Of a DNA stretch of 32,033 nucleotides, positions 11,293 through 27,281 are shown piece after piece. Position 1 is the stretch's first letter. Every line of letters begins with the position of its first letter. The notes under the pieces were generated by a model. The model had not been told where the DNA came from. It saw only the letters and a program-made list of their open reading frames with translations, and did no database searches. Both the position numbers and the translations under genes were made by a program. This DNA is from Gammaproteobacteria bacterium (GTDB lineage: Bacteria; Pseudomonadota; Gammaproteobacteria; Steroidobacterales; Steroidobacteraceae): positions 1 through 32,033 of the forward strand of contig JAGWPE010000179.1 of assembly GCA_028870635.1 (NCBI GenBank), written 5' to 3'.

Positions 11293-12516
11293 TCAGGCGA
11301 GCTGCGCTTGCAGCAGCCGCAGCCTGCGCCGCTGCAGCCGCAGCCTGTGCTCGAGCTCCTTCAGGCGCTGCTGGAAGTTGGCGTGCTCCCAATGCTCGAT
11401 GACGGCGCGCTTCTTCTCTTCCAGCCACTGCTCCTTCACCTTGGCCCACTCGGCGACCGCGGCGAGGAATGTCTCGTATTCGTGCTGCACGCGCTGGCGC
11501 AGCTCGCTGACCCGCGAGGGCGCGGCCGCGGCCGCGAGGCTCGCGAGCTTCCTCTGCGCGCGGGTGAACTGCATCGCGAGCAGGGCGCGCTGGATCTGGA
11601 ACACGGGCGTGCGCTTCAGGCGCCGCGTGAGCCCGACCCACTGCAGGCCTGCGATCAGCCACTTCGTCGGGTCCCACTGCCACCAGCGCACGCCATTGCG
11701 GTAGTCGTGCGCGAAGATGTGATGGAAATTGTGGTAGCCCTCGCCGAAGGTGAGCACCGCGAGCACCGGATTGTCGCGCGCGGTGTTGTCCTCGGTGTAC
11801 GGGCGCCCGCCCCACATGTGCGCCAGGGAATTGATGAAGAAGGTGAAATGATGGCTCACCACCAGCCGCAGCACGCCGGCGAGGAGGAAGGTGCCCCAGA
11901 GATCGCCCACCAGCCAGCCCGCCACGAGCGGCAGCCCGATATTGGTGGCGAGCACGAGCGCGACATAATGCCGCTGCTGGAAGGCCAGCATACGGTCGCG
12001 CCGCAGGTCGGGGATGTTGCTGAAGTCCTCGCGCCCGCTCGGGTACTCCCGCACCATCCAGCCGATGTGCGAGAACCAGAACCCCAGCGGGGCGGCGTAC
12101 GGGTCGCGGTCCACGTCATCGACGTCGAGGTGATGCCGGCGGTGGCCGCTGCACCACGCCCAGGCGGTGTTCTGCAGCGCCATCGAGCCGAAGACGACGA
12201 AGAGCAGGCGCAAGCTCCAGTGCGCCTCGTAAGTCCGGTGAGCCCAGAGCCGATGGTAGCCGGCGGTGATGGACATCTCGTTGGCGACCACGAAGACGCC
12301 GAACAGCACCCAGGCCGCCGTCGAGAAGCCATGGGTCAAGCCGTACCAGGGGACGAGTACCGCGGCAGCAAGAAAAGTCAACGAAAACAGTAGGATATTC
12401 GTCCAGATCAGGGGCGCCCCAGCGGCGGTGGCGGGGGACGCGGAGCTCGGTGCGGAGGGACGGGACGGCATGGCGGCTGGTGGCTCCACGAAGTGGCCGG
12501 TAAACCCACTAAACAT
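11293..12516 (-). CDS. Membrane fatty-acid (acyl-CoA delta-9-type) desaturase
   Basis: 407 residues from the ATG at 12516, which has GGGGGA eight bases upstream; ATGs at 12570 and 12471 are alternatives. Four or more membrane helices carry the three di-iron histidine boxes: HRLWAH (88-93), HRRHH (125-129) and HNFHH (262-266), plus the NSLAH motif. The enzyme inserts a double bond into a saturated acyl chain, altering membrane fluidity, and needs an electron donor not seen here. After the desaturase core (about residue 310) comes an extension of nearly 100 residues. It is rich in Arg, Gln, Leu and Glu and ends in heptad-like runs (LKELEHRLRLQRRRLRLLQ), which predicts a cytoplasmic coiled coil. 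The yebC-like gene follows directly. Confidence 0.92.
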   Translation of the reverse strand: MFSGFTGHFVEPPAAMPSRPSAPSSASPATAAGAPLIWTNILLFSLTFLAAAVLVPWYGLTHGFSTAAWVLFGVFVVANEMSITAGYHRLWAHRTYEAHWSLRLLFVVFGSMALQNTAWAWCSGHRRHHLDVDDVDRDPYAAPLGFWFSHIGWMVREYPSGREDFSNIPDLRRDRMLAFQQRHYVALVLATNIGLPLVAGWLVGDLWGTFLLAGVLRLVVSHHFTFFINSLAHMWGGRPYTEDNTARDNPVLAVLTFGEGYHNFHHIFAHDYRNGVRWWQWDPTKWLIAGLQWVGLTRRLKRTPVFQIQRALLAMQFTRAQRKLASLAAAAAPSRVSELRQRVQHEYETFLAAVAEWAKVKEQWLEEKKRAVIEHWEHANFQQRLKELEHRLRLQRRRLRLLQAQLA

Positions 12517-12612
12517 AGCACGGTTCCCCCGTGCGCAGGGAGCCGCGGGGGCGATTGCGAGGCTCCGCACGCTTGCAGACTCGCCGCGCGCAGGGGCGAG
12601 CCGGTGCCTTTC

Positions 12613-12639
12613 AGCGAGGACACTTAACGTGTCCTCGCT
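12613..12639. repeat. Inverted repeat, 11-bp perfect arms
   Basis: AGCGAGGACAC, loop TTAAC, then the exact complement GTGTCCTCGCT. It is a stable hairpin in either direction, lying about 100 bases upstream of the desaturase start. No T-run follows on either side, so termination is possible but unproven; an operator is the other option because the symmetric centre is AT-rich. Confidence 0.6.
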
Positions 12640-12648
12640 CCGGCGAGC

Positions 12649-12670
12649 GCCCGCGCACGGATGCGCGGGC
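12649..12670. repeat. Second inverted repeat, 9-bp perfect arms
   Basis: GCCCGCGCA, loop CGGA, then TGCGCGGGC. It lies only 9 bases after the previous hairpin, so the two together would form a double stem-loop in RNA from either strand. Confidence 0.6.
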
Positions 12671-12778
12671 CGGGGGCGCTACCGCCATGGACGGCCAGTG
12701 GCACGGCCCCCACTCTCCCCGTTTGTGATAGCTCCCTTTGCGCCCCCCAGCGGCGCATCCCCTGACCCGCGCGTCCCT

Positions 12779-12818
<40 letters not shown>

Positions 12819-13213
12819 AGCGACAGCCCGAGCGCAGCCACAGCGGTCCTCGCCGTGACGCCGAAGCTCGAGAGGCAACCCCGCAAACGACCCGCGCCGC
12901 GCGTGTTAGGCAAATCGGCCGACCGCCTGTTTTCCGGGGTCTCCTGGATGTCAGGTCTCGCCAAAGAGACACGGCGTTCCATTGCTGACACACTCGCGCC
13001 GAGCAATATGTCCCGCCATTCGCACGGACCGGTGACTGCGGTTGCAGGCGGCAAGGGCCGGGTGTATTGATAGCGCCCGACAACGCAACCGTGCCCGACA
13101 TGCGTGTTAAACCATGTCCGCCCTGGAGGGCGACCGCTTCTGTGCCCGTCTTCGGGCCGCCTTGGTGGAGGAGCGCCGGAAGCGGCCGTATTTCCGCAAT
13201 ACCAAGAATTTGT

Positions 13214-13220
13214 GGAGGAG
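13214..13220 (+). promoter_or_regulatory. Strong ribosome-binding site of the 26-codon ORF
   Basis: GGAGGAG is nearly a full anti-16S complement and sits 2 to 4 bases before the ATG at 13223. It is the strongest such site in the leader and is the main reason to believe that the small ORF is translated. Confidence 0.6.
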
Positions 13221-13222
13221 AT

Positions 13223-13303
13223 ATGAGCTACCAGTTCCAATCCTTGGCCGTCGAGGCGATCGTGATCGCCGGAGCGGCAGCCTCACAAAAGGGGGACATA
13301 TGA
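13223..13303 (+). CDS. 26-residue small ORF coupled to the dehydrogenase gene
   Basis: ATG at 13223 with GGAGGAG directly upstream; its TGA (13301-13303) overlaps the dehydrogenase ATG (13300) as ATGA, the classic coupling arrangement. The peptide begins MSYQFQSLAVEAIVIAGA and ends ASQKGDI. The middle is hydrophobic but too short for a membrane helix and contains a Glu. It has no Cys, no signal peptide and no Glu-x3-Tyr, so it is not a PqqA-type PQQ precursor. It may be a leader that sets translation of the dehydrogenase, a secreted or modified peptide, or a structural partner. I do not recognise it. Confidence 0.5.
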   Translation: MSYQFQSLAVEAIVIAGAAASQKGDI

Positions 13304-15186
13304 AACTATCAGATTGGCGCAAAGTACTGGCGCCGGCCGCAATCCTGTTGGCAGCGGGAATGGGCTGCGCAACGGCCTTTGCGCAAACCGGAGCGGATGC
13401 CGACCTGTGGACGTCGATGGGACAGAACGCGGCGCTCGACCGGCATAGCCCGCTGACGCAGATCACCCCGAGCAACGCGAGCCAGTTGGAGATGATCTGG
13501 TCGCAATCGACGGGCGCGCTGCGCGGCCACGAGGGTCAGCCGATCGTCGTGGACGTCGACGGCAAGCCGATGATGTTCTTCGAAAGCGCCTGGCCGAACA
13601 TCGTTCAGGCGTTGGATCTGTCGGATCCGGACCATCCCGTCGAGGTATGGAACTACGTGAAGAAGACTGACCGCGATCTCTCCGCGGTGCCGCGCGCATG
13701 CTGCGACACCGTCAATCGCGGTGTTAACTATGCAGACGGGAAGGTCGTCCTCAATACGCTCGACGGATATCTCATCGCGCTGGACGCCAGGACCGGCAAG
13801 GTGGACTGGGAGGTCAAGCGCGCCTATCCGGACAAGGGCGAGACCGTGACCGGGGCGCCGCTGATCGCCAACGGCAAGGTCATCGATGGCTTCGGCGGCG
13901 ACGAGTTCGCCGCGCGCGGACGGGTCGAGGCCTATGACCTTCAGACCGGAAAGTTGGTCTGGAGATACTGGGACAACGGCACCGACCAGGAGATCGGCCT
14001 GACGCCACAGACGAACAAGGCCAATCCGCAGTACGGCACTTATGGCCACCGCACCGGGTTGACCTACCCCGGCGACGAGTGGAAGCGCGGCGGCGGCGCG
14101 GCCTGGGCCTGGTACAGCTATGACCCGGAGCTGAAGCTCGTTTATTACGGGTCAGGCAATCCCGGCCTCTGGAGCCCCTCGTACCGCTGCGGCGCCAAGC
14201 CGGTATCACAGAAAGCCTGCAACGACGGCAAGTGGGACAACAAGTGGTCGATGAGCATCTTCGCCAGGAACGTCGACACCGGCAAGGTGGCGTGGGTCTA
14301 TCAGATGACGCCGTTCGATCAATGGGACTATGACGGTGTCAACGAGCCCATCCTGGTCAATCTGACGATCGACGGCAGGATGCACAAGGCGCTCGTCCAC
14401 TTCGATCGTAACGGCTTTGCCTATGTCCTCGATCGAACGAACGGCACACTGCTGGAGGCGCACAAGTACGTGGCGGTCAACTGGGCGGAAAAGATCGACA
14501 TGAAGACCGGCCGCCCCGTCAAGGTGGGAGAGCACTCGCCGTTGACCGTCGGCCAGATGGCCCAGGCCTGCCCCTCGGCGATGGGCGGCAAGGATCAGCA
14601 GCCCGCGTCCGTCGATCCCAACAATCCGGAAATCTTCTTTGTGCCAACCAACAATTGGTGCATGCAGGATACGCCGCAGACCCGCACCAGCATGCAGCAG
14701 GGTGTGGTGTACGTCTTCGCCAACGTCTACATGTACGAGCACAAGCCCGGAGTCTCGGGCCGGGTGAAGGCGTTCAACGTGGTGACCGGACAGACGGTGT
14801 GGGACATCCCGGACAAGTACCCGAACTGGGGCGGAACGCTGAACACCGCGGGCGGCGTGGTGTTCTACGGCAGCCTCGGCGGTGACTTCCGCGCCGTCGA
14901 CTCCAAGAGCGGCAGGATCCTCTGGTCCCGCAAGCTCGGCTCCGGAATCATCGGGAACCCGATCAGCTACGAGATCAAGGGACACCAGTACGTATCGGTC
15001 TTCGCCGGCATCGGCGGGTGGATCGGCTTGCCGGTGACGGCGGGTCTCGATCTCGGCGATAAGTACGGCGCGATCGGCGCGACGGCAATGGCCAAAGCAA
15101 CTCACCTTAACCTGATTCCTCAGGGCGGTGAGCTGTACACCTTCCGCCTGCCGGGACAGGAGCAGGTTGCCAATAACGGAATGTGA
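13300..15186 (+). CDS. xoxF: PQQ-dependent alcohol dehydrogenase, XoxF type, probably lanthanide-dependent
   Basis: 628 residues with a signal peptide (about 1-30, ending ATAFAQ) and eight W-motif propeller blades. It oxidises a primary alcohol (methanol or similar) in the periplasm with PQQ and passes electrons to cytochrome c. Visible active-site parts: adjacent cysteines RACCDT (134-135), metal ligands Glu202 (GGDEFAARG) and Asn287 (GSGNPG), and catalytic Asp343 in QWDYDGVNE. Asp345, two residues after the catalytic Asp, is the mark of lanthanide-using XoxF/ExaF enzymes; calcium enzymes have Ala, Ser or Thr there. A short insertion with Cys297 and Cys307 could add a disulfide. The ATG at 13300 gives the signal peptide and overlaps the preceding small ORF; a frame extension to 13114 does not fit export. 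The genes after it encode its typical partners. Substrate not determinable; an ExaF-like ethanol enzyme is the alternative. Confidence 0.93.
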   Translation: MKLSDWRKVLAPAAILLAAGMGCATAFAQTGADADLWTSMGQNAALDRHSPLTQITPSNASQLEMIWSQSTGALRGHEGQPIVVDVDGKPMMFFESAWPNIVQALDLSDPDHPVEVWNYVKKTDRDLSAVPRACCDTVNRGVNYADGKVVLNTLDGYLIALDARTGKVDWEVKRAYPDKGETVTGAPLIANGKVIDGFGGDEFAARGRVEAYDLQTGKLVWRYWDNGTDQEIGLTPQTNKANPQYGTYGHRTGLTYPGDEWKRGGGAAWAWYSYDPELKLVYYGSGNPGLWSPSYRCGAKPVSQKACNDGKWDNKWSMSIFARNVDTGKVAWVYQMTPFDQWDYDGVNEPILVNLTIDGRMHKALVHFDRNGFAYVLDRTNGTLLEAHKYVAVNWAEKIDMKTGRPVKVGEHSPLTVGQMAQACPSAMGGKDQQPASVDPNNPEIFFVPTNNWCMQDTPQTRTSMQQGVVYVFANVYMYEHKPGVSGRVKAFNVVTGQTVWDIPDKYPNWGGTLNTAGGVVFYGSLGGDFRAVDSKSGRILWSRKLGSGIIGNPISYEIKGHQYVSVFAGIGGWIGLPVTAGLDLGDKYGAIGATAMAKATHLNLIPQGGELYTFRLPGQEQVANNGM

Positions 15187-15310: not shown

Positions 15311-17104
15311 ATGTCCTTAATGCCGCGATGCGGCCGCTGCGCGATGTCGGCGGCCCTTTTGTCGATCACCGCTCTTTTTGCTTCGACCGCGTTCGCTGAC
15401 AACACCACGACCCCGTCGGCCGCCAACTCGGCCGGCCTGCAGGGTCCCTGGGTCGGCAAAGATTTCGACGAGCTGGACCAGGCCGAGATAGACGCGGCCA
15501 GGCAAGCCGCTCGGAACGCCCACTTTCCCACCCTGCGCGTCTGCGCGGACCCCGGCAACATGCCGCTTTCCGATCGCGCCCGGGAGGGATACCAGAACAA
15601 GATCCTCGAGGTTCTCGCCAAGGCGATGGGCGCCCGGCTGAGCTACTACTGGCGCGCCTATACGGGCGACCTCGTCGGTCAGGCATTCGGAACGGCTGAC
15701 GAATGCGACCTCCTGATGGACATGCCCGTCGAGGACGACGACATCCTGGCGACGATGCCGATCTATCGCACGAGCTACGTGCTCGTGTGGCGCAACGACG
15801 AGAAGCTCTCCATCAGCAGCCTCGATGACCCGCGCCTCAGGCATTTGCGCGTAGGGGTATTCCAGATCTCCGCGTTGCGCCAGGCGCTCTCCGATCACGG
15901 TGTCGTCGCGAACGTAAAGGTCTGGCACGTGAGCAGCGACACCGAATGGGTCCCGGCGCATCAGCCCTGGCGCCAGGTCCAGGAGGTGGTCGACGGCAAG
16001 CTCGACGTCGCCGCCGCCTGGGGACCGATGGCGGGTTGGCTGAAGACCATGAAAAGAGCGCCAATCACCATTCAACCCACCAATCTCATGGACAACTCGG
16101 TACCGATGGAATTCAGCCTGGGGATAGGCGTGCCGAAGCAGGATGTGGTGCTGAAATTCGCACTCGATGACGCGCTCAAGGCGCATCGAGCCGAGATCGA
16201 GGGCATCCTGCGCAAGTACGGCGTGCCCATGGTGAAATGCGCCGACTGCCTCATCCCGGGTGACCTTCCGGCGCACGGCAGCTACATGACGCAAACGTCC
16301 GTCGCTGACAGCGAGAGCAAGCCGACGCACTGGTCGGTCTCCCGGGTGCAGGTCGACAAGTGGCTGGCGGAAGGGTCGAGCGCCAACAAGGAGCTCGATG
16401 ACGCCGTCATAGCCAATGACGTCGATCGGGCCGCCTATTTGATCGGCAAGGGCGCCAGCGTGAACGCGTTGGATAACCTCGGCACGCCGCCGCTGGTGAC
16501 GGCCGCCCGCGCCGGCTGCATCGAAATGATGCAGCTGCTCATCGCGCACGGGGCGAAAGTGGATCGGCGCGACGGAGAAGGAGCGACGCCCCTCATGGGC
16601 GCGGCCGAGCGCAACCAGGCCGCGGCCATCAGGTTCCTGGTCGCGCATGGCGCGAGCACGGAGAAGGGGGCGCCCCGCGGCTACACTCCCCTGTCGCTCG
16701 CGATCGAGGAGCAGCAGTTCGATGCCGCATACACCCTCATCGAAGCGGGTGCGGACGTGAACACCGCGGCCAGCAAATACCGGCTGACGCCCCTCATGGT
16801 CGTCGCAAGCGAGCCGCCGCCGGGAGCGCACAGTCTGGTGCGCGTGCTGCAGAATCATGGACCGATGGACGTCGCCCGCGCCCTGCTGGCCCACAAGGCG
16901 AAGGTGAACGCGACCGACACCGAGGGGGTGACCGCGCTCATGATCGCGGCCGCGCACGACAATTCGCCCATGATCGCGTTGCTGATCCAATCCGGCGCGA
17001 ATCCGGCCATGAAGTCGGCGGCGGGCGAGACCGCGCGCGACATCGCAGTCAAGAACGACAATCTCGGCGCCATACGGATCCTTTCATTGCTCGTTCGCCG
17101 CTGA
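15311..17104 (+). CDS. XoxJ-like periplasmic binding protein fused to ankyrin repeats
   Basis: 597 residues. ATG at 15311 with AAGGA upstream; signal peptide about 1-29 (ALFASTAFA). Residues about 75-320 form a MoxJ/XoxJ-like substrate-binding domain (TLRVCADPGNMPLSD, GYQNKILEVLAKAMG, CDLLMDMPVEDDD, VDGKLDVAAAWGPMAGW). This domain is usual next to methanol-type dehydrogenases, where XoxJ is thought to help activate the enzyme. From about 358 to the end run some six ankyrin repeats (for example GTPPLVTAARAGCIEMMQLL, GATPLMGAAERNQAAAIRFL, GVTALMIAAAHDNSPMIALL). XoxJ proteins are usually about 280-300 residues, so the second half is an addition and probably a protein-binding surface in the periplasm. 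Cys310 and Cys313 in VKCADCLIPGD lie at the end of the first domain. It follows the dehydrogenase and precedes the cytochrome. Confidence 0.88.
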   Translation: MSLMPRCGRCAMSAALLSITALFASTAFADNTTTPSAANSAGLQGPWVGKDFDELDQAEIDAARQAARNAHFPTLRVCADPGNMPLSDRAREGYQNKILEVLAKAMGARLSYYWRAYTGDLVGQAFGTADECDLLMDMPVEDDDILATMPIYRTSYVLVWRNDEKLSISSLDDPRLRHLRVGVFQISALRQALSDHGVVANVKVWHVSSDTEWVPAHQPWRQVQEVVDGKLDVAAAWGPMAGWLKTMKRAPITIQPTNLMDNSVPMEFSLGIGVPKQDVVLKFALDDALKAHRAEIEGILRKYGVPMVKCADCLIPGDLPAHGSYMTQTSVADSESKPTHWSVSRVQVDKWLAEGSSANKELDDAVIANDVDRAAYLIGKGASVNALDNLGTPPLVTAARAGCIEMMQLLIAHGAKVDRRDGEGATPLMGAAERNQAAAIRFLVAHGASTEKGAPRGYTPLSLAIEEQQFDAAYTLIEAGADVNTAASKYRLTPLMVVASEPPPGAHSLVRVLQNHGPMDVARALLAHKAKVNATDTEGVTALMIAAAHDNSPMIALLIQSGANPAMKSAAGETARDIAVKNDNLGAIRILSLLVRR

Positions 17105-17141: not shown

Positions 17142-17666
17142 ATGATGATGAGACGCTTCGCAGGCGTGGTCGCCTCCAGTTTGGCGCTGATCGGGACGGG
17201 CTTTGGGCTCATGGCGGCATCTCCCGCCGCCGCCGCCGCAACCCATTCCTCTGCGAAGGGCTCTCCCATCACGGGCAAGCCGCCGCTGCAGGTCGTCGCG
17301 ACCGCGCCCAAGGGATCGCTGCACAATCCGTACAACGGCAATGCGGCGATGGCCAAAGCCGGCCACAAGCTGTTCTTCCAGTATGGTTGCAACGGCTGCC
17401 ACGGCGGCAACGGCGGCGGCGGCATGTGTCCGCCGCTCACCAACGGCGTCTGGATCTACGGCGGCAGCGACGACACCCTTTTCCGCCTCGTCTCGCTGGG
17501 GTCGACGAAGCTCGTGGCGGCCGGTTATGAGCGGCAAGCCCTGGAGGACGTCGTGGGACCGATGCCGTCGATGGGCCCGCTGATCAAGAGCGACGGTGAT
17601 CTGTGGAAAATCATCACCTGGGTTCGGTCGGTCTACAACGGGCCTCCAGCTCACAAGTACAAGTGA
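17142..17666 (+). CDS. XoxG-like cytochrome c
   Basis: 174 residues with an exported N-terminus (signal about 1-33). A single haem site CNGCH (Cys83, Cys86, His87) is followed by candidate axial methionines in GPMPSMGPL (Met141, Met144). One c-type haem in the periplasm fits the electron acceptor of the PQQ dehydrogenase. The size agrees with XoxG proteins, and the position two genes after xoxF is typical. Three consecutive ATGs (17142, 17145, 17148) follow GGAG at 17135; the second has the best spacing. The next gene starts 7 bases after the stop. Confidence 0.88.
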   Translation: MMMRRFAGVVASSLALIGTGFGLMAASPAAAAATHSSAKGSPITGKPPLQVVATAPKGSLHNPYNGNAAMAKAGHKLFFQYGCNGCHGGNGGGGMCPPLTNGVWIYGGSDDTLFRLVSLGSTKLVAAGYERQALEDVVGPMPSMGPLIKSDGDLWKIITWVRSVYNGPPAHKYK

Positions 17667-17673
17667 CCGGTGC

Positions 17674-18906
17674 ATGACCGGGCGCTGCGCCCTTGGAGCC
17701 TCGGGGCTGCTCACGCTGGCTTTGCTGGCCGGCGTGAGCCAGTCCTTCGGGGCCCCGGCTGCGGCCGGCAGCGCCGCGGCGCGCACTTTCCCGATCGTCT
17801 ACCTCCGCGAAGCCTATCCCGGGCCCGGGATCATGCCGTCGCTTCTGGAGACTCACCCTGACGACCTGGGGCTCGCCGGCGCGCAGGAGGCCGAGTACGA
17901 GATCAATACCACCGGCAAGTTTCTGGGTTGGCATTTCAAGCTGTATGTCGTGACGCTTCCGGCGGGCGCGGACGTCGCGGCCCGGGCCAGGCAGATGCTG
18001 ACCGGGGGACCCGAGGTCATCGTCGCCGACCTTCGTGCGGACGATCTTCTGAGACTCGCCGACGTTCCTTCCGCGAAGGACTCATTGATCCTCGACATGA
18101 GAACGGACGAGGACAGCTTGCGGCAGCAGCAGTGCCGGGCGAACGTCTTTCACATCCTTCCGAGCCAGGCAATGCGGGCCGATGCGCTGGCGCAATTCCT
18201 GGTGGAGAAGCGCTGGACACGGTGGTTCCTGCTTCAGGGTCCCACGCGACAGGATGCTGTCTACGCAGCGGACGTTCGCCGCTCGGCTGCCCGCTATGGA
18301 GCCCGGATCGTCGCCGCCAGAAGCTATGATTACAACCCCGGCTCGCTCCGCAGCGACACCGGCTATCAGCAGATTCAAACGCAGATGCCTCTCGCGACGC
18401 AGGTCGGCTCCGATTACGACGTCCTCTTCGTCGCGGATCAGACGGATCTGTTCGGAGATTATCTTCCCTACAACACGTTCGACGCGCGCCCCGTCGTCGG
18501 AACACAGGGGCTCGTCGCGACGGCCTGGACGCCCGCCTTTCAGTCCTATTCCGCCCTGCAGATGCAGCACAGGTTCAAGCTCTTCGCCCATCGCGACATG
18601 TTTGAGCGCGATTACGGCGGCTGGCTCGCCGTCAGAATCGTCGGCGACGCCGTCATGCGCGGGAGGCAGACGTCGCCGGACGGAATGCGGGCGTACCTGA
18701 GATCCGACAGCTTTCTCGTCGCCGGCTTCAAGGGGCAAGGCCTGACATTCAGGCGGTGGGATCAGCAACTGCGTCAGCCGGTGCTGCTTGCGCAGCCGCT
18801 GATGGTCGTTTCCATGTCGCCGCAGAACGGTTTTCTCCACCCGGGGGATACGACCGACACCTTGGGCTTCGATGAGCCGGAGACGCAATGCCGATTCGCG
18901 CGATGA
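17674..18906 (+). CDS. PQQ-dehydrogenase-associated ABC substrate-binding protein (PedA1-like)
   Basis: 410 residues from the ATG at 17674, starting with a signal peptide (LLTLALLAGVSQSFGAPAAA). The body looks like a branched-chain amino-acid-type (type 1) periplasmic binding protein: FPIVYLREAYPGPG, EVIVADLRADDLL, a middle DALAQFLVEKRWTRWFLLQG and VGSDYDVLFVADQTD. This kind of protein is a regular neighbour of PQQ alcohol dehydrogenases, as PedA1 in Pseudomonas putida and LutA in methylotrophs. Those systems have been linked to lanthanide handling or alcohol-product export. The genes for its presumed beta-propeller partner overlap it, and its ATPase and permease (PedB/C-like) lie 3.6 kb further on. 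Ligand unknown. Confidence 0.82.
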   Translation: MTGRCALGASGLLTLALLAGVSQSFGAPAAAGSAAARTFPIVYLREAYPGPGIMPSLLETHPDDLGLAGAQEAEYEINTTGKFLGWHFKLYVVTLPAGADVAARARQMLTGGPEVIVADLRADDLLRLADVPSAKDSLILDMRTDEDSLRQQQCRANVFHILPSQAMRADALAQFLVEKRWTRWFLLQGPTRQDAVYAADVRRSAARYGARIVAARSYDYNPGSLRSDTGYQQIQTQMPLATQVGSDYDVLFVADQTDLFGDYLPYNTFDARPVVGTQGLVATAWTPAFQSYSALQMQHRFKLFAHRDMFERDYGGWLAVRIVGDAVMRGRQTSPDGMRAYLRSDSFLVAGFKGQGLTFRRWDQQLRQPVLLAQPLMVVSMSPQNGFLHPGDTTDTLGFDEPETQCRFAR

Positions 18907-19877
18907 CCGGGCGCGGCGCCGCGCTGCTCGCACTTGCCGCCGTCCTGTGCTCCTTTGCCGCGAGCACCCAGGCCAGCGAGCTCTTCGTCTCGAACGAAGT
19001 CGACGATACGGTGACGGTGCTCGACGGTGAAAGCTACAAGGTGCTCGCGACGATTCCGACCGACCAGCGGCCCCGGGGAATCGTGGAGACTCCGGACCAC
19101 AAGGCCGTTCTGGTGTGCGATGGCGACTCGAGCAACATCGACGTCATCGATACGAAGACGCTGAAGGTAACGCGCAAACTGGAGACCGGCCCGGACCCCG
19201 AAACGCTGGCGATGTCTCCGTCGGGCGACAAGGTCTACGTCTCGAATGAGAACAACGCGCTGGTGACGGTATTGGACTACGCCACCGGCAAGGTGATCAC
19301 CCAGATCCCGGTCGGCATAGAGCCTGAAGGTCTCGCCGTCACCAGGAACGGGGGGAGCGTGGTGGTCGTCTCCGAGTCCACCAGCATGGCGCATTTCATC
19401 GACACCAGGACATGGCAGGTCGTGGCCAACGTCCTCGTGGATACGCGGCCGAGGATTGCCGAATACACCCCCGATGAGCGTTACCTTTGGGTCTCATCGG
19501 AGGTCGGGGGCACCGTCTCGGTCATCGACCCCCGCAGCCATGAGATCGTGCACACGATGGAGTTCCGGATCCCGGGGGTCGACAAGCAATACATCGGGCC
19601 CGTAGGCGTGCGCTTCACGCCCGACGGCCGTCTGGCGTTCGTGGCCTTGGGGCGTGCGAATCGGGTCGCCGTGGTCGACCCGAAGACCTACGAAGTCCAA
19701 CAGTACATTCTGGTGGGACAGCGGCCCTGGCAGCTGGCATTCAGCCCGGACCACACCAAGCTCTACGTGGCAAATGGACTCACGAACGACGTGACGATCA
19801 TCGACGTGTCGTCGCTGAGAGCGGTGAAGTCGGTTCCTGTCGGCCGCCTGCCGTGGGGCATCGCCGTGGTCCCCTGA
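18888..19877 (+). CDS. YVTN beta-propeller protein, PQQ-associated (PedA2-like)
   Basis: 329 residues with a signal peptide and about seven repeats of the YVTN/NHL kind, for example ELFVSNEVDDTVTVLDGES, GDKVYVSNENNALVTVLDY and HTKLYVANGLTNDVTIID, each starting from a PRGI/PEGLAV/PWQLAFSPD strand. It should be a periplasmic propeller that binds another protein or ligand of the system. The ATG at 18888 has GGAG five bases upstream and overlaps the preceding gene by 19 bases; an ATG at 18903 forming ATGA with the previous stop is an alternative. The same pairing (binding protein plus propeller) is seen with PQQ dehydrogenase transporters. Confidence 0.85.
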   Translation: MPIRAMTGRGAALLALAAVLCSFAASTQASELFVSNEVDDTVTVLDGESYKVLATIPTDQRPRGIVETPDHKAVLVCDGDSSNIDVIDTKTLKVTRKLETGPDPETLAMSPSGDKVYVSNENNALVTVLDYATGKVITQIPVGIEPEGLAVTRNGGSVVVVSESTSMAHFIDTRTWQVVANVLVDTRPRIAEYTPDERYLWVSSEVGGTVSVIDPRSHEIVHTMEFRIPGVDKQYIGPVGVRFTPDGRLAFVALGRANRVAVVDPKTYEVQQYILVGQRPWQLAFSPDHTKLYVANGLTNDVTIIDVSSLRAVKSVPVGRLPWGIAVVP

Positions 19878-25248: not shown

Positions 25249-25718
25249 TGGGGCCCCTCTGATTGCCGAAGGATTCGGTGGGCTCGCTGGCCAAGCATCC
25301 GCCATGCCAAGTTAATTTTTCGTTAATAATCAAATAATTATAACGTGTGGAGGCACTGGCTCGGCCGTCATTGCACCAGCACGGTGCAGCGCCGCCCGTG
25401 CCCCTCCCAATCGGGTGCGCCGGAGCCCGAATGCTGTGTGGTCTCTCTCCCACGAGCGCCGCGGCCGGCGCGGATGTCATACTTTCCCTTTGCCGTCAGT
25501 CTCGTCCGACATGTTTTTCAGACACAGCAAATGAGTTACGCTGCGAAAATCCGTGTCCTTGGGCGCCGCCTCTTGCGCCGTCGCAACTCAGGGGCGGATT
25601 TAACCAGAGCAGAGCCACCGGACTGTCGCTCGATGGCGACAGGGGGGCTCTGTTTGTGCCGCGAAGACCGGACGCGGTACGAGCGGATCGTTTGAGCCGG
25701 TTTGCCCGGGGAGCCTTG
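25249..25718. other. Divergent gap between porin and opgG genes
   Basis: 470 bases without a convincing gene. The section 25314-25343 is strongly AT-rich in a GC-rich genome and holds the likely porin promoter. Frames open toward opgG across this gap have no signal character and translate into low-complexity sequence. A control region for opgG should also lie here; I see no clear boxes for it. Confidence 0.5.
25337..25342 (-). promoter_or_regulatory. Candidate -10 box of the porin gene
   Basis: TATAAT read on the minus strand, inside the AT-rich tract about 90 bases upstream of the porin ATG. No good -35 box lies 16-18 bases further upstream, so the call rests on the perfect -10 sequence and the local AT bias. 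Confidence 0.35.
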
Positions 25719-27281
25719 GTGTTACCGCTTCATCGAACGCAGCTGGCCGCCGCCGCCCTCGCGCTCCTCCTGCTGACCTCCGCGGTCGGCCAGACCCCCG
25801 GCACTCCGCAGCAGCCGCAGGCGCCCGCATTCACCTTCGCCACGGTGCAGCGCCTTGCGCAGGAGCGCGCCGCGCGGCCTTACCACATCCGCTCTACGCC
25901 GCTGCCGCGGGCTCTCGCGACGCTCAGCTACGATCAGTACCGGCAGATCGGATTCCGGCCTTCCGCCGCGCTGTGGCACGGCCAGTCCATGTTCGAGGTG
26001 CAATTTTTCCATCGCGGCTTCAATTTCGATCGACGGGTCAACGTCTACGAGGTGGTGCCGTCCGGGGTGCGGCCGGTGGTGTACAGCCCCTCGATGTTCC
26101 AGTTCGGGAAGAGCGTGCCGCGGGTCACCCTGCCCGCCAACCTCGGCTTTGCGGGCTTGAGCGTGCATTACCCCCTGAACACGCCGGGTTACAAGGACGA
26201 AGTGGTCGCCTTTCTCGGCGCCTCGTACTTCCGGGCGCTCGGCCGCAATCAGGGATACGGTGTCTCGGCGCGGGGCCTCGCCATCGATACCGCCACACCC
26301 GCCGGGGAGGAATTCCCGTATTTCACCGATTTCTGGCTGGTCCGCCCGGAGCCGAACCAGCGGACCATGACCATTTATGCCCTTCTGGACAGCCCGAGCA
26401 TGGCCGGCGCGTATGAGTTCGACGTGCGCCCAGGTACCGTCACCCAGGTACAGGTCACGGCGGAGCTTTACCCGCGGCGGGCGGTGGACAAGCTTGGGAT
26501 CGCGCCGCTGACTTCCATGTTCCTCTACGGCGAGAGCTCCGATGGCCGTCCCTTCGATGACTGGCGGCCGGAGGTGCACAACAGCGACGGCCTGATGATG
26601 CAGACCGGTACGGGTGAATGGCTGTGGCGGCCCCTGGACGACCCGGAGAAGCTTCAGGTCAACCGCTACATGGACGATAGTCCCAAGGGCTTCGGCCTCA
26701 TCCAGCGCGACCGCAACTTCGCCGACTACGAGGACCCGGACTCGCAGTACGAGCGGCGGCCGAGCTACTGGATCCAGCCGCTCGGCAATTGGGGCAAGGG
26801 CGGCATAGAGCTCGTCGAAATCCCGAGCGATGAGGAAATCCACGAGAATATCGATGCGTACTGGGTACCCAGCGCCGCGGTGGTGCCGCACGCGCCGATC
26901 CGGTTCTCGTATCTGCTATCGGCTTATCTGAATTCCGGCGGCCGCTGGCCTCCCGGCGGCAAGGTGATCGCCACGCGCTTCGGGCCGGTCCTGAACGGCA
27001 CGACCCCCGTGTCAGGCATGCGGCTTGTTCTCATTGATTTCACCGGTGGCGACCTCGATTCTCTGATGCCGTCGCAGCCGGTGCATGCGGACGTGGCCGC
27101 GGACGGAGGCACGATCAGTCATGTCACCGTTCAGCGAATACCCGAAAATGGTGTCTGGCGCGTGACGATGGAGGTGAAACCCGCGGGCGACCAGCCGGTC
27201 GATTTGCGTTGTTATCTCGATTTGTACGGCGAGGCTTTGACCGAGACTTGGACTTATCAGTGGACACCTTCGGGAGCGTAG
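25719..27281 (+). CDS. opgG: Periplasmic glucan biosynthesis protein OpgG/OpgD
   Basis: 520 residues from a GTG at 25719 with GGGGAG five bases upstream; it opens a signal peptide (LAAAALALLLLTSAVG). Family marks: FTFATVQRLAQERAARPY, LSYDQYRQIGFRP, FEVQFFHRGFNFDRRVNVYEV, GFAGLSVHYPLN, FLGASYFRALGRNQGYG, ARGLAIDTA, EEFPYFTDFWLVRP, LTSMFLYGE and EVHNSDGL. The protein acts in the periplasm on the glucan backbone made by OpgH, in osmoregulated periplasmic glucan synthesis; recent work describes OpgG/OpgD proteins as glucan-acting enzymes. Length is normal for the family. OpgD is the close alternative, but direct pairing with opgH favours OpgG. Confidence 0.93.
   Translation: MLPLHRTQLAAAALALLLLTSAVGQTPGTPQQPQAPAFTFATVQRLAQERAARPYHIRSTPLPRALATLSYDQYRQIGFRPSAALWHGQSMFEVQFFHRGFNFDRRVNVYEVVPSGVRPVVYSPSMFQFGKSVPRVTLPANLGFAGLSVHYPLNTPGYKDEVVAFLGASYFRALGRNQGYGVSARGLAIDTATPAGEEFPYFTDFWLVRPEPNQRTMTIYALLDSPSMAGAYEFDVRPGTVTQVQVTAELYPRRAVDKLGIAPLTSMFLYGESSDGRPFDDWRPEVHNSDGLMMQTGTGEWLWRPLDDPEKLQVNRYMDDSPKGFGLIQRDRNFADYEDPDSQYERRPSYWIQPLGNWGKGGIELVEIPSDEEIHENIDAYWVPSAAVVPHAPIRFSYLLSAYLNSGGRWPPGGKVIATRFGPVLNGTTPVSGMRLVLIDFTGGDLDSLMPSQPVHADVAADGGTISHVTVQRIPENGVWRVTMEVKPAGDQPVDLRCYLDLYGEALTETWTYQWTPSGA

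Follow-up and report, generated by a model that had tools for sequence, protein, structure and literature searches.

The window, by which we mean the whole 32,033-nucleotide stretch that was analysed, comes from a Steroidobacteraceae MAG of 3.5 Mb in 420 contigs with an estimated completeness of 83%. It carries a small ORF that starts with ATG at position 13223, ends with TGA at 13301–13303 and encodes, in 26 codons, the peptide MSYQFQSLAVEAIVIAGAAASQKGDI. The ATG of a methanol dehydrogenase gene lies at 13300, so that its overlap with the stop of the small ORF reads ATGA. The locus comprises the following genes and signals.

11293–12570, minus strand: fatty acid desaturase (Pfam), upstream flank of the locus
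13214–13220, plus strand: Shine-Dalgarno of the small ORF, GGAGGAG, identical in five xoxF5 leaders of the genus
13223–13303, plus strand: upstream ORF (uORF) of 26 codons, from its sequence and from comparison with orthologues and xoxF5 apparently a retained xoxF5 5′ end (codons 1–8 clear, 9–20 probable), followed by the dehydrogenase's Shine-Dalgarno and start
13289–13295, plus strand: the dehydrogenase's own Shine-Dalgarno, AAGGGGG, within the 3′ end of the small ORF
13300–15186, plus strand: XoxF1-type lanthanide methanol dehydrogenase with a signal-peptide-like N-terminus of its own (TIGR03075, 565 bits; 7o6z, 790 bits; GGDE and WDYDG motifs)
15311–17104, plus strand: MoxJ/XoxJ-like periplasmic protein (TIGR03871, residues 75–308) fused to C-terminal ankyrin repeats (Ank_2, about residues 360–590)
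17142–17666, plus strand: MoxG-like cytochrome c (TIGR03872 at 43 bits, below the model cut-off of 148; Pfam Cytochrom_C)
17596–18906, plus strand: PQQ-system ABC substrate-binding protein (TIGR03863)
18888–19877, plus strand: PQQ-associated beta-propeller protein (TIGR03866)
25347–27281, plus strand: mdoG (Pfam), downstream flank of the locus

Among solved enzymes the window dehydrogenase is closest to XoxF1 (7o6z, 790 bits versus 558 bits for the next). Its GGDE aligns with the GGDE of 7o6z (Asp172-Glu173 by counting), the extra Asp before the metal-binding Glu thus being present where XoxF5 has GGEF, and FDQWDYDGVNE aligns with FDQWDYDGINE of 7o6z, which places the lanthanide Asp two residues after the catalytic Asp. 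The additional Asp (Asp172 in 7O6Z) is called diagnostic for XoxF1 in PMC8546591. The XoxJ-like/ankyrin fusion is 69–77% identical in ten relatives that have the cluster. At two loci (L191 in G049 and L192 in G014) some of the transporter genes of the cluster have the opposite orientation to that in the window, and a gene resembling a TonB receptor is found close to the cluster. In each of the large genomes G050, G005, G039 and G010 of the genus, 10–20 TIGR03075 matches were counted (E≤1e-50), with scoring limited to 20 candidates, so that a count of 20 is a lower bound; the window genome shows one.

Close relatives of the dehydrogenase (at least 79% identity) were found in 12 genomes of the genus, all of them Steroidobacteraceae MAGs. 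Nine carry the ORF and two (G014 and G049) lack it; in the remaining one (G052, 90% identical) the contig begins inside the gene, so that the leader is not on the contig and the genome stands outside the nine-versus-two count. A peptide search of 99 genomes, the window's own included, gave 13 matches at E≤10. Eight of these are true (the window's own genome G000 plus G055, G036, G006, G048, G035, G008 and G030), the seven same-genus homologues other than the window having E-values of 2e-6 to 0.024 and each its own Shine-Dalgarno and ATGA overlap, and four were taken as chance. The thirteenth, in G033, is not noise, as the leader there opens a different, XoxF5-type dehydrogenase. The ninth copy, in G032 (contig title Steroidobacteraceae), has only 14 codons (MSYEFRSFSHMGDI) and came to light when the region before the dehydrogenase gene was read. 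No second copy was seen in the window's own genome at E≤10. A pattern scan returned 16 loci, 11 of which proved on reading to be true leaders, all in contigs of Gammaproteobacteria, Proteobacteria or Steroidobacteraceae MAGs; the other five (L137, L141, L144, L149 and L151) lack the arrangement and were rejected as chance hits.

In the nine genomes the ORF measures 14, 25, 26, 27, 29 (four genomes) or 30 codons. The two genes are always co-directed, the ATGA overlap on the dehydrogenase start is present in nine of nine orthologues, and the start-to-start distance is 2 mod 3 in every one of them. By our reading of the alignment there were at least five length changes, all frame-preserving (P 0.004 for five, 0.0014 for six). 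All nine ORFs have a Shine-Dalgarno of their own and also keep GGGGGAYATATGA, which is the Shine-Dalgarno and start of the dehydrogenase. The small ORF is a real, conserved mini-gene. Its reading frame, ribosome-binding site and ATGA junction, as the earlier note had described them from the window, are thus borne out in nine genomes. Homologous loci with no conserved ORF or start, which that note had named as speaking against it, are not what the comparison found: the ORF, its start and its N-terminal residues are conserved.

The 5′ end of the ORF has a counterpart elsewhere in the genus. Its upstream DNA, its Shine-Dalgarno and its seven opening codons match those of xoxF5 (MSYEYRS...), where these codons form the start of a signal peptide; the uORFs begin in the manner of MSY[QE]F[RQ]S, and the xoxF5 genes of G039, G050 and G033 with MSYEYRS. 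In G033 the window-type leader starts a dehydrogenase of the full-size type (MSYEYRSVPIRAVVLAAAAAITTAALADAD...), and likewise in G050 and G039, the xoxF5 genes of G033 and G050 being interrupted by gaps or contig ends. The protein behind the leader in genomes of this type is XoxF5-type, its nearest solved relative being 6oc5 (923 bits), which we take to belong to the XoxF5 clade. The window XoxF1 is only 45–48% identical to XoxF5, and the two fall into separate, well-supported (starred) clades of a tree that used 51 of 81 dehydrogenase rows; related 5′ ends thus stand before different genes. Four elements of the leader are referred to below.

12973–12992, plus strand: distal conserved block GTTCCATT..TGACACAC, common to the xoxF5 upstream regions of the genus (mean identity 0.77, nine uORF versus four xoxF5 leaders)
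13033–13082, plus strand: main conserved upstream block GGTTGCAGG...CGGGTGTATTGATAG, a candidate promoter or operator common to xoxF5 of the genus (identity 0.75–0.80)
13187–13195, plus strand: leader arm CGTATTTCC, complementary to the Shine-Dalgarno/AUG of the uORF, as in a possible hairpin masking the ribosome-binding site (97 of 99 cells paired)
13217–13225, plus strand: 3′ arm GGAGATATG of the possible hairpin, from Shine-Dalgarno to AUG, by complementarity

When aligned, the conserved blocks (12973–12992, 13033–13082, 13173–13202 and 13213–13242) have mean identities of 0.72–0.85; identity is poorer between them (0.09–0.6) and falls to 0.30–0.51 from about codon 5–7 on, a 20-base value of 0.02 past 13303 being an alignment-end effect that was disregarded. 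Comparison by blastn of the 260 nt preceding each of the nine uORFs with the xoxF5 leaders gave best E-values per leader of 2e-21 to 2e-4 (G055 2e-21; window 2.5e-8; G030, G048 and G008 2e-4), all to xoxF5 of the genus, and for the regions upstream of 65 other dehydrogenase genes in the genus blastn gave no match to the uORF leaders at E≤1. A leader model, R1, run with Infernal and stricter filters on 58 genomes, gave 16 hits at E≤0.1, 14 of which precede uORF-xoxF1 (nine) or xoxF5 (five, the one in G005 running off its contig); as 11 of these 14 are in the model by construction, G008, G005 and G010 are the only independent ones. The two weakest hits (G057 and G018) have no matching Shine-Dalgarno-ATG start and were taken as chance. 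Between codons 9–20 of the ORF and the XoxF5 signal peptide there is an ungapped resemblance (7, 4, 53, 3 and 145 of 2000 shuffles were as good in the five species compared), with weak homology in G048. These comparisons indicate that the leader and first codons of the uORFs share their origin with those of xoxF5 in the genus. A scan of 12530–13400 for sigma-70 promoters and terminators found none, including no consensus promoter in the 13033–13082 block, and Rfam gave no match in the whole window at the gathering threshold. A short tandem GAGCCC repeat, seen by eye, lies at 12780–12819 between the desaturase and the conserved leader.

The two dehydrogenase genes also share a chromosomal place, as a comparison of the window's genes with 18 flanks showed. 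On the upstream side, YebC and the desaturase precede the xoxF5 locus in G010 and G050; in G000, G055, G036, G035 and G032 they stand just before the uORF. On the downstream side, mdoG follows xoxF5 in G010, G039 and G005, and it follows the XoxF1 cluster in G000 and G036. Shared flanks are thus found upstream in five of the nine uORF genomes, with G000 and G036 sharing the downstream flank as well, and among the xoxF5 genomes on both sides in G010, upstream in G050 and downstream in G039 and G005. The 7–10 kb upstream in G030, G048 and G008 hold none of the window's genes, and in G006, with only 1.4 kb on the upstream side, mdoG is absent from the downstream stretch examined; as these flanks are missing there, the unit of leader and cluster must have moved in G030, G048 and G008 (and, judged from the downstream side, in G006). 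Nor was the exchange a clean swap, since a beta-propeller gene that stands between the desaturase and xoxF5 in G010 and G050 is missing at that point in the window.

Among the 58 genomes of the genus, XoxF5 (at least 83% identity) was found in five (G005, G010, G033, G039 and G050) and window-type XoxF1 (at least 79%) in twelve others, with no genome holding both; an overlap of zero is expected by chance with P 0.30 and is not significant, and several of the MAGs are only 70–83% complete. The argument for displacement therefore rests on the shared place and the leader. The first to branch off in the tree are the window and G032, which both occupy the xoxF5 place, and the leaderless G014 and G049 are nested inside, so that the ORF is probably ancestral, having then moved in one lineage and been lost in another. 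The dehydrogenases of G014 and G049 begin VYTLTDRTPRRADR/AQR..., an N-terminus common to paralogues of about 45% identity, one of which (L070) is in the same genome as L115 (G049), and their start codon would be GTG. In these two close XoxF1 relatives (L131 and L115) the 5′ end appears to have been replaced once more, again by a borrowed one.

As to which gene owned the leader, xoxF5 of another genus (G289) starts with MRYEYRS and has GGAGGAGATATGAGA and a GGGTGTATTCATA block, and that of a further genus (G247) has a GGGTGTATTGATAG block. A short piece of the main block, GGGTGTATTSATA, stands before both genes; only such short pieces are alike between these leaders and those of the uORFs, and blastn reaches only E 3.5. 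Inspection of eight XoxF genes of the same family and other genera showed MRYEYRS in one, partial likeness (MKTECRS, MKSEYRF) in two and none in five, and eight XoxF genes from other families had no MRYEYRS-like start. G005 has a second XoxF5 (L053), which is without the leader. Seven XoxF1 genes are 68–71% identical to that of the window; the six of them that were read directly lack the leader, and the R1 model found none in the seven genomes. From the short pieces on xoxF5 of other genera and this absence from the 68–71% XoxF1 genes, it is more likely that the leader was originally xoxF5's rather than xoxF1's.

Selection acts unevenly along the ORF. Pooled pairwise pN/pS in seven representatives (G008 and G030 being left out as near-copies of G048) was 0.14 for codons 2–8, 1.39 for the middle and 0.55 for the whole ORF, crude values since the pairs share branches. 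A parsimony count by hand for codons 2–8 gave about seven synonymous and seven non-synonymous changes of 14 (binomial P 0.006 versus a neutral 0.82), and the same codons in four xoxF5 genes had a pN/pS of 0.36. The middle of the peptide is missing altogether in G032 (14 aa). Owing to charged or polar residues in the middle, the longest run free of DEKRHNQ is shorter in the uORF peptides (3–11 residues) than in XoxF5 signal peptides (16–20). The best 10-residue Kyte-Doolittle stretch is −0.12 to 1.48 in six of the nine peptides, and in G000, G055 and G036 it is 1.92–2.27, about equal to XoxF5 (1.99–2.75). We infer that the ORF peptide no longer directs export, and put this no more strongly since the cores of these last three are about as hydrophobic as those of XoxF5. 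The statement in the earlier note that there is no signal peptide needs correcting: although the peptide is not recognisable as a complete signal peptide, it seems to be derived from one. The peptide probably has no function off the ribosome.

We consider it likely that the ORF is the retained start of an xoxF5 gene displaced in situ by the XoxF1 cluster, its leader and first codons having been kept, probably for termination-reinitiation coupling. This origin, apparently from the 5′ end of a displaced xoxF5, had been overlooked in the earlier note. In the ancestor of the clade, the XoxF1 dehydrogenase cluster would have replaced xoxF5 between the YebC-desaturase pair and mdoG, leaving before the newcomer the xoxF5 upstream region, untranslated leader, Shine-Dalgarno and first codons with the signal-peptide start, and the retained codons would now end in the ATGA overlap with the xoxF1 start codon. 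Ribosomes would load at the old xoxF5 Shine-Dalgarno, translate 14–30 codons, stop at ATGA and reinitiate on xoxF1, aided by its own AAGGGGG, and the dehydrogenase would thereby stay under the transcriptional and translational control of xoxF5. The shared chromosomal place, the conserved overlap and frame and the neutral middle can be read from the alignments and flanks; coupling of the small ORF to translation of the dehydrogenase is likely, and the direction of the exchange, with xoxF1 replacing xoxF5, is the one these data suggest. Coupling may be partial, because the dehydrogenase has its own Shine-Dalgarno. In tests elsewhere (PMC6728339), strict coupling was seen for 13 of 14 overlapping pairs, with a variable contribution of the downstream Shine-Dalgarno.

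The non-significant exclusivity, the short matches to leaders of other genera and the still hydrophobic core in the window slightly weaken the case for displacement and for the portable control element described below, and slightly strengthen that for a passive remnant or the opposite direction. That the ORF is a role-less remnant of xoxF5, with the dehydrogenase initiating from its own AAGGGGG, we hold to be unlikely. It would fit the dehydrogenase's own conserved Shine-Dalgarno, the neutral middle of the ORF and the life of G014 and G049 without it, but a remnant of this kind would not be expected to keep its frame through at least five length changes, its ATGA overlap in all nine genomes and the constraint on codons 2–8. 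Quite improbable, in our estimate, is the opposite direction, in which the leader was xoxF1's and was taken over by xoxF5: the MRYEYRS start and blocks of the G289 gene and the leaderless 68–71% XoxF1 genes speak against it, while the leader and place are common to both genes, as it would also predict, and the likeness to xoxF5 leaders of other genera is only short.

The leader itself offers a further candidate for control. Across 11 leaders, 97 of 99 cells of the arms CGTATTTCC/GGAGATATG pair, versus 40–71% when the arms are slid; the possible pair can also be written CGUAUUUCC/GGAGAUAUG, with CGUAUUUCC as the leader arm. No covariation between the arms was found in the 11 leaders. Among the 13 leaders for which arm pairing was scored, eight have a predicted probability of 0.99–1.0; the value for the window is 0.42 and that for G032 is 0. 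Folding z-scores for 16 leaders range from −3.4 to +1.9 (the xoxF5 leader of G005 is too short). Masking of the ribosome-binding site by the leader arm is possible. A tentative extension, to which we would give a modest chance, is a portable xoxF5 translation-control element, first codons included, in which CGUAUUUCC masks the Shine-Dalgarno and AUG and opens in response to a signal related to methanol or lanthanides, and which was kept as a coupled ORF so that the foreign XoxF1 inherited the control; the ORF would then be a fossil signal peptide turned regulatory adaptor.

The conserved arm, found in xoxF5 and uORF leaders alike, and the constrained N-terminal residues could also be read as signs of a regulatory leader peptide, whose nascent chain or translation senses lanthanide, methanol or PQQ and sets xoxF1 translation by attenuation or stalling. 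We give this very little weight, since the conserved C-terminal part is the Shine-Dalgarno and start of the next gene, the same N-terminal residues open a plain enzyme precursor in xoxF5, and the hairpin arms lack covariation. Looked at as a stalling or attenuation leader, the ORF is constrained in codons 2–8 only, with a middle that is neutral and absent in G032. Of the leader idea in the earlier note, an effect on dehydrogenase translation survives as the most likely role, and its sensing part found no evidence. A functional small protein, either an MxaI-like dehydrogenase subunit or a precursor of a PqqA-like modified peptide, is barely conceivable: the ORF adjoins a PQQ dehydrogenase gene and its N-terminus is conserved, but the peptide has no Pfam or NCBIfam match at E≤1, its length varies from 14 to 30 aa, and an origin from the xoxF5 5′ end accounts for it otherwise. 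The core motif of PqqA is Glu-x3-Tyr, and it is absent from all nine peptides. Both suggestions, the small structural subunit and the modified peptide, had been raised in the earlier note and are not supported, in view of the neutral middle (pN/pS 1.39), its absence in G032 and the missing family match.

Displacement of xoxF5 with retention of its start would provide a case, with flanks and sister species, of a distant homologue that took a gene's place but kept its old control region, and for lanthanide biology an apparent XoxF5-to-XoxF1 exchange at one locus. A truncated signal peptide would here have become a short overlapping ORF that has kept its frame in a clade within which the dehydrogenases diverge by as much as about 21%. 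It also suggests a possible origin of 'orphan' leader ORFs that match nothing in databases, which might be compared with the 5′ end of the relatives' gene at the same place. In titles and abstract openings of the papers found on XoxF with upstream ORFs, leader peptides, gene replacement and XoxJ/ankyrin, the arrangement is not described.

The arrangement of ORF and dehydrogenase is a variation on known things and not a new kind of system. In gene displacement in situ, a distant homologue comes to stand at the same chromosomal place. The present locus agrees with this in having such a homologue and the same flanks around the old and the new gene, but differs in that the displaced gene has apparently left part of itself behind, namely the leader and first codons, still in frame. 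With the XoxF5-type enzyme (6oc5) of the genus the locus shares the leader and first codons of the ORF, whereas none of the nine ORF-carrying genomes was found to contain the XoxF5 enzyme. XoxF1 of PDB 7O6Z (PMC8546591) is the best structural relative by sequence, sharing GGDE and WDYDG; the window enzyme differs in coming from a gammaproteobacterial family, in being preceded by an overlapping ORF and in having an XoxJ-like partner with ankyrin repeats. With termination-reinitiation at ATGA (PMC6728339), the locus has in common the ATGA overlap and a downstream Shine-Dalgarno inside the upstream ORF; unlike the coupled gene pairs described there, its upstream ORF would be a relic of 14–30 codons from the 5′ end of another gene rather than a partner gene.
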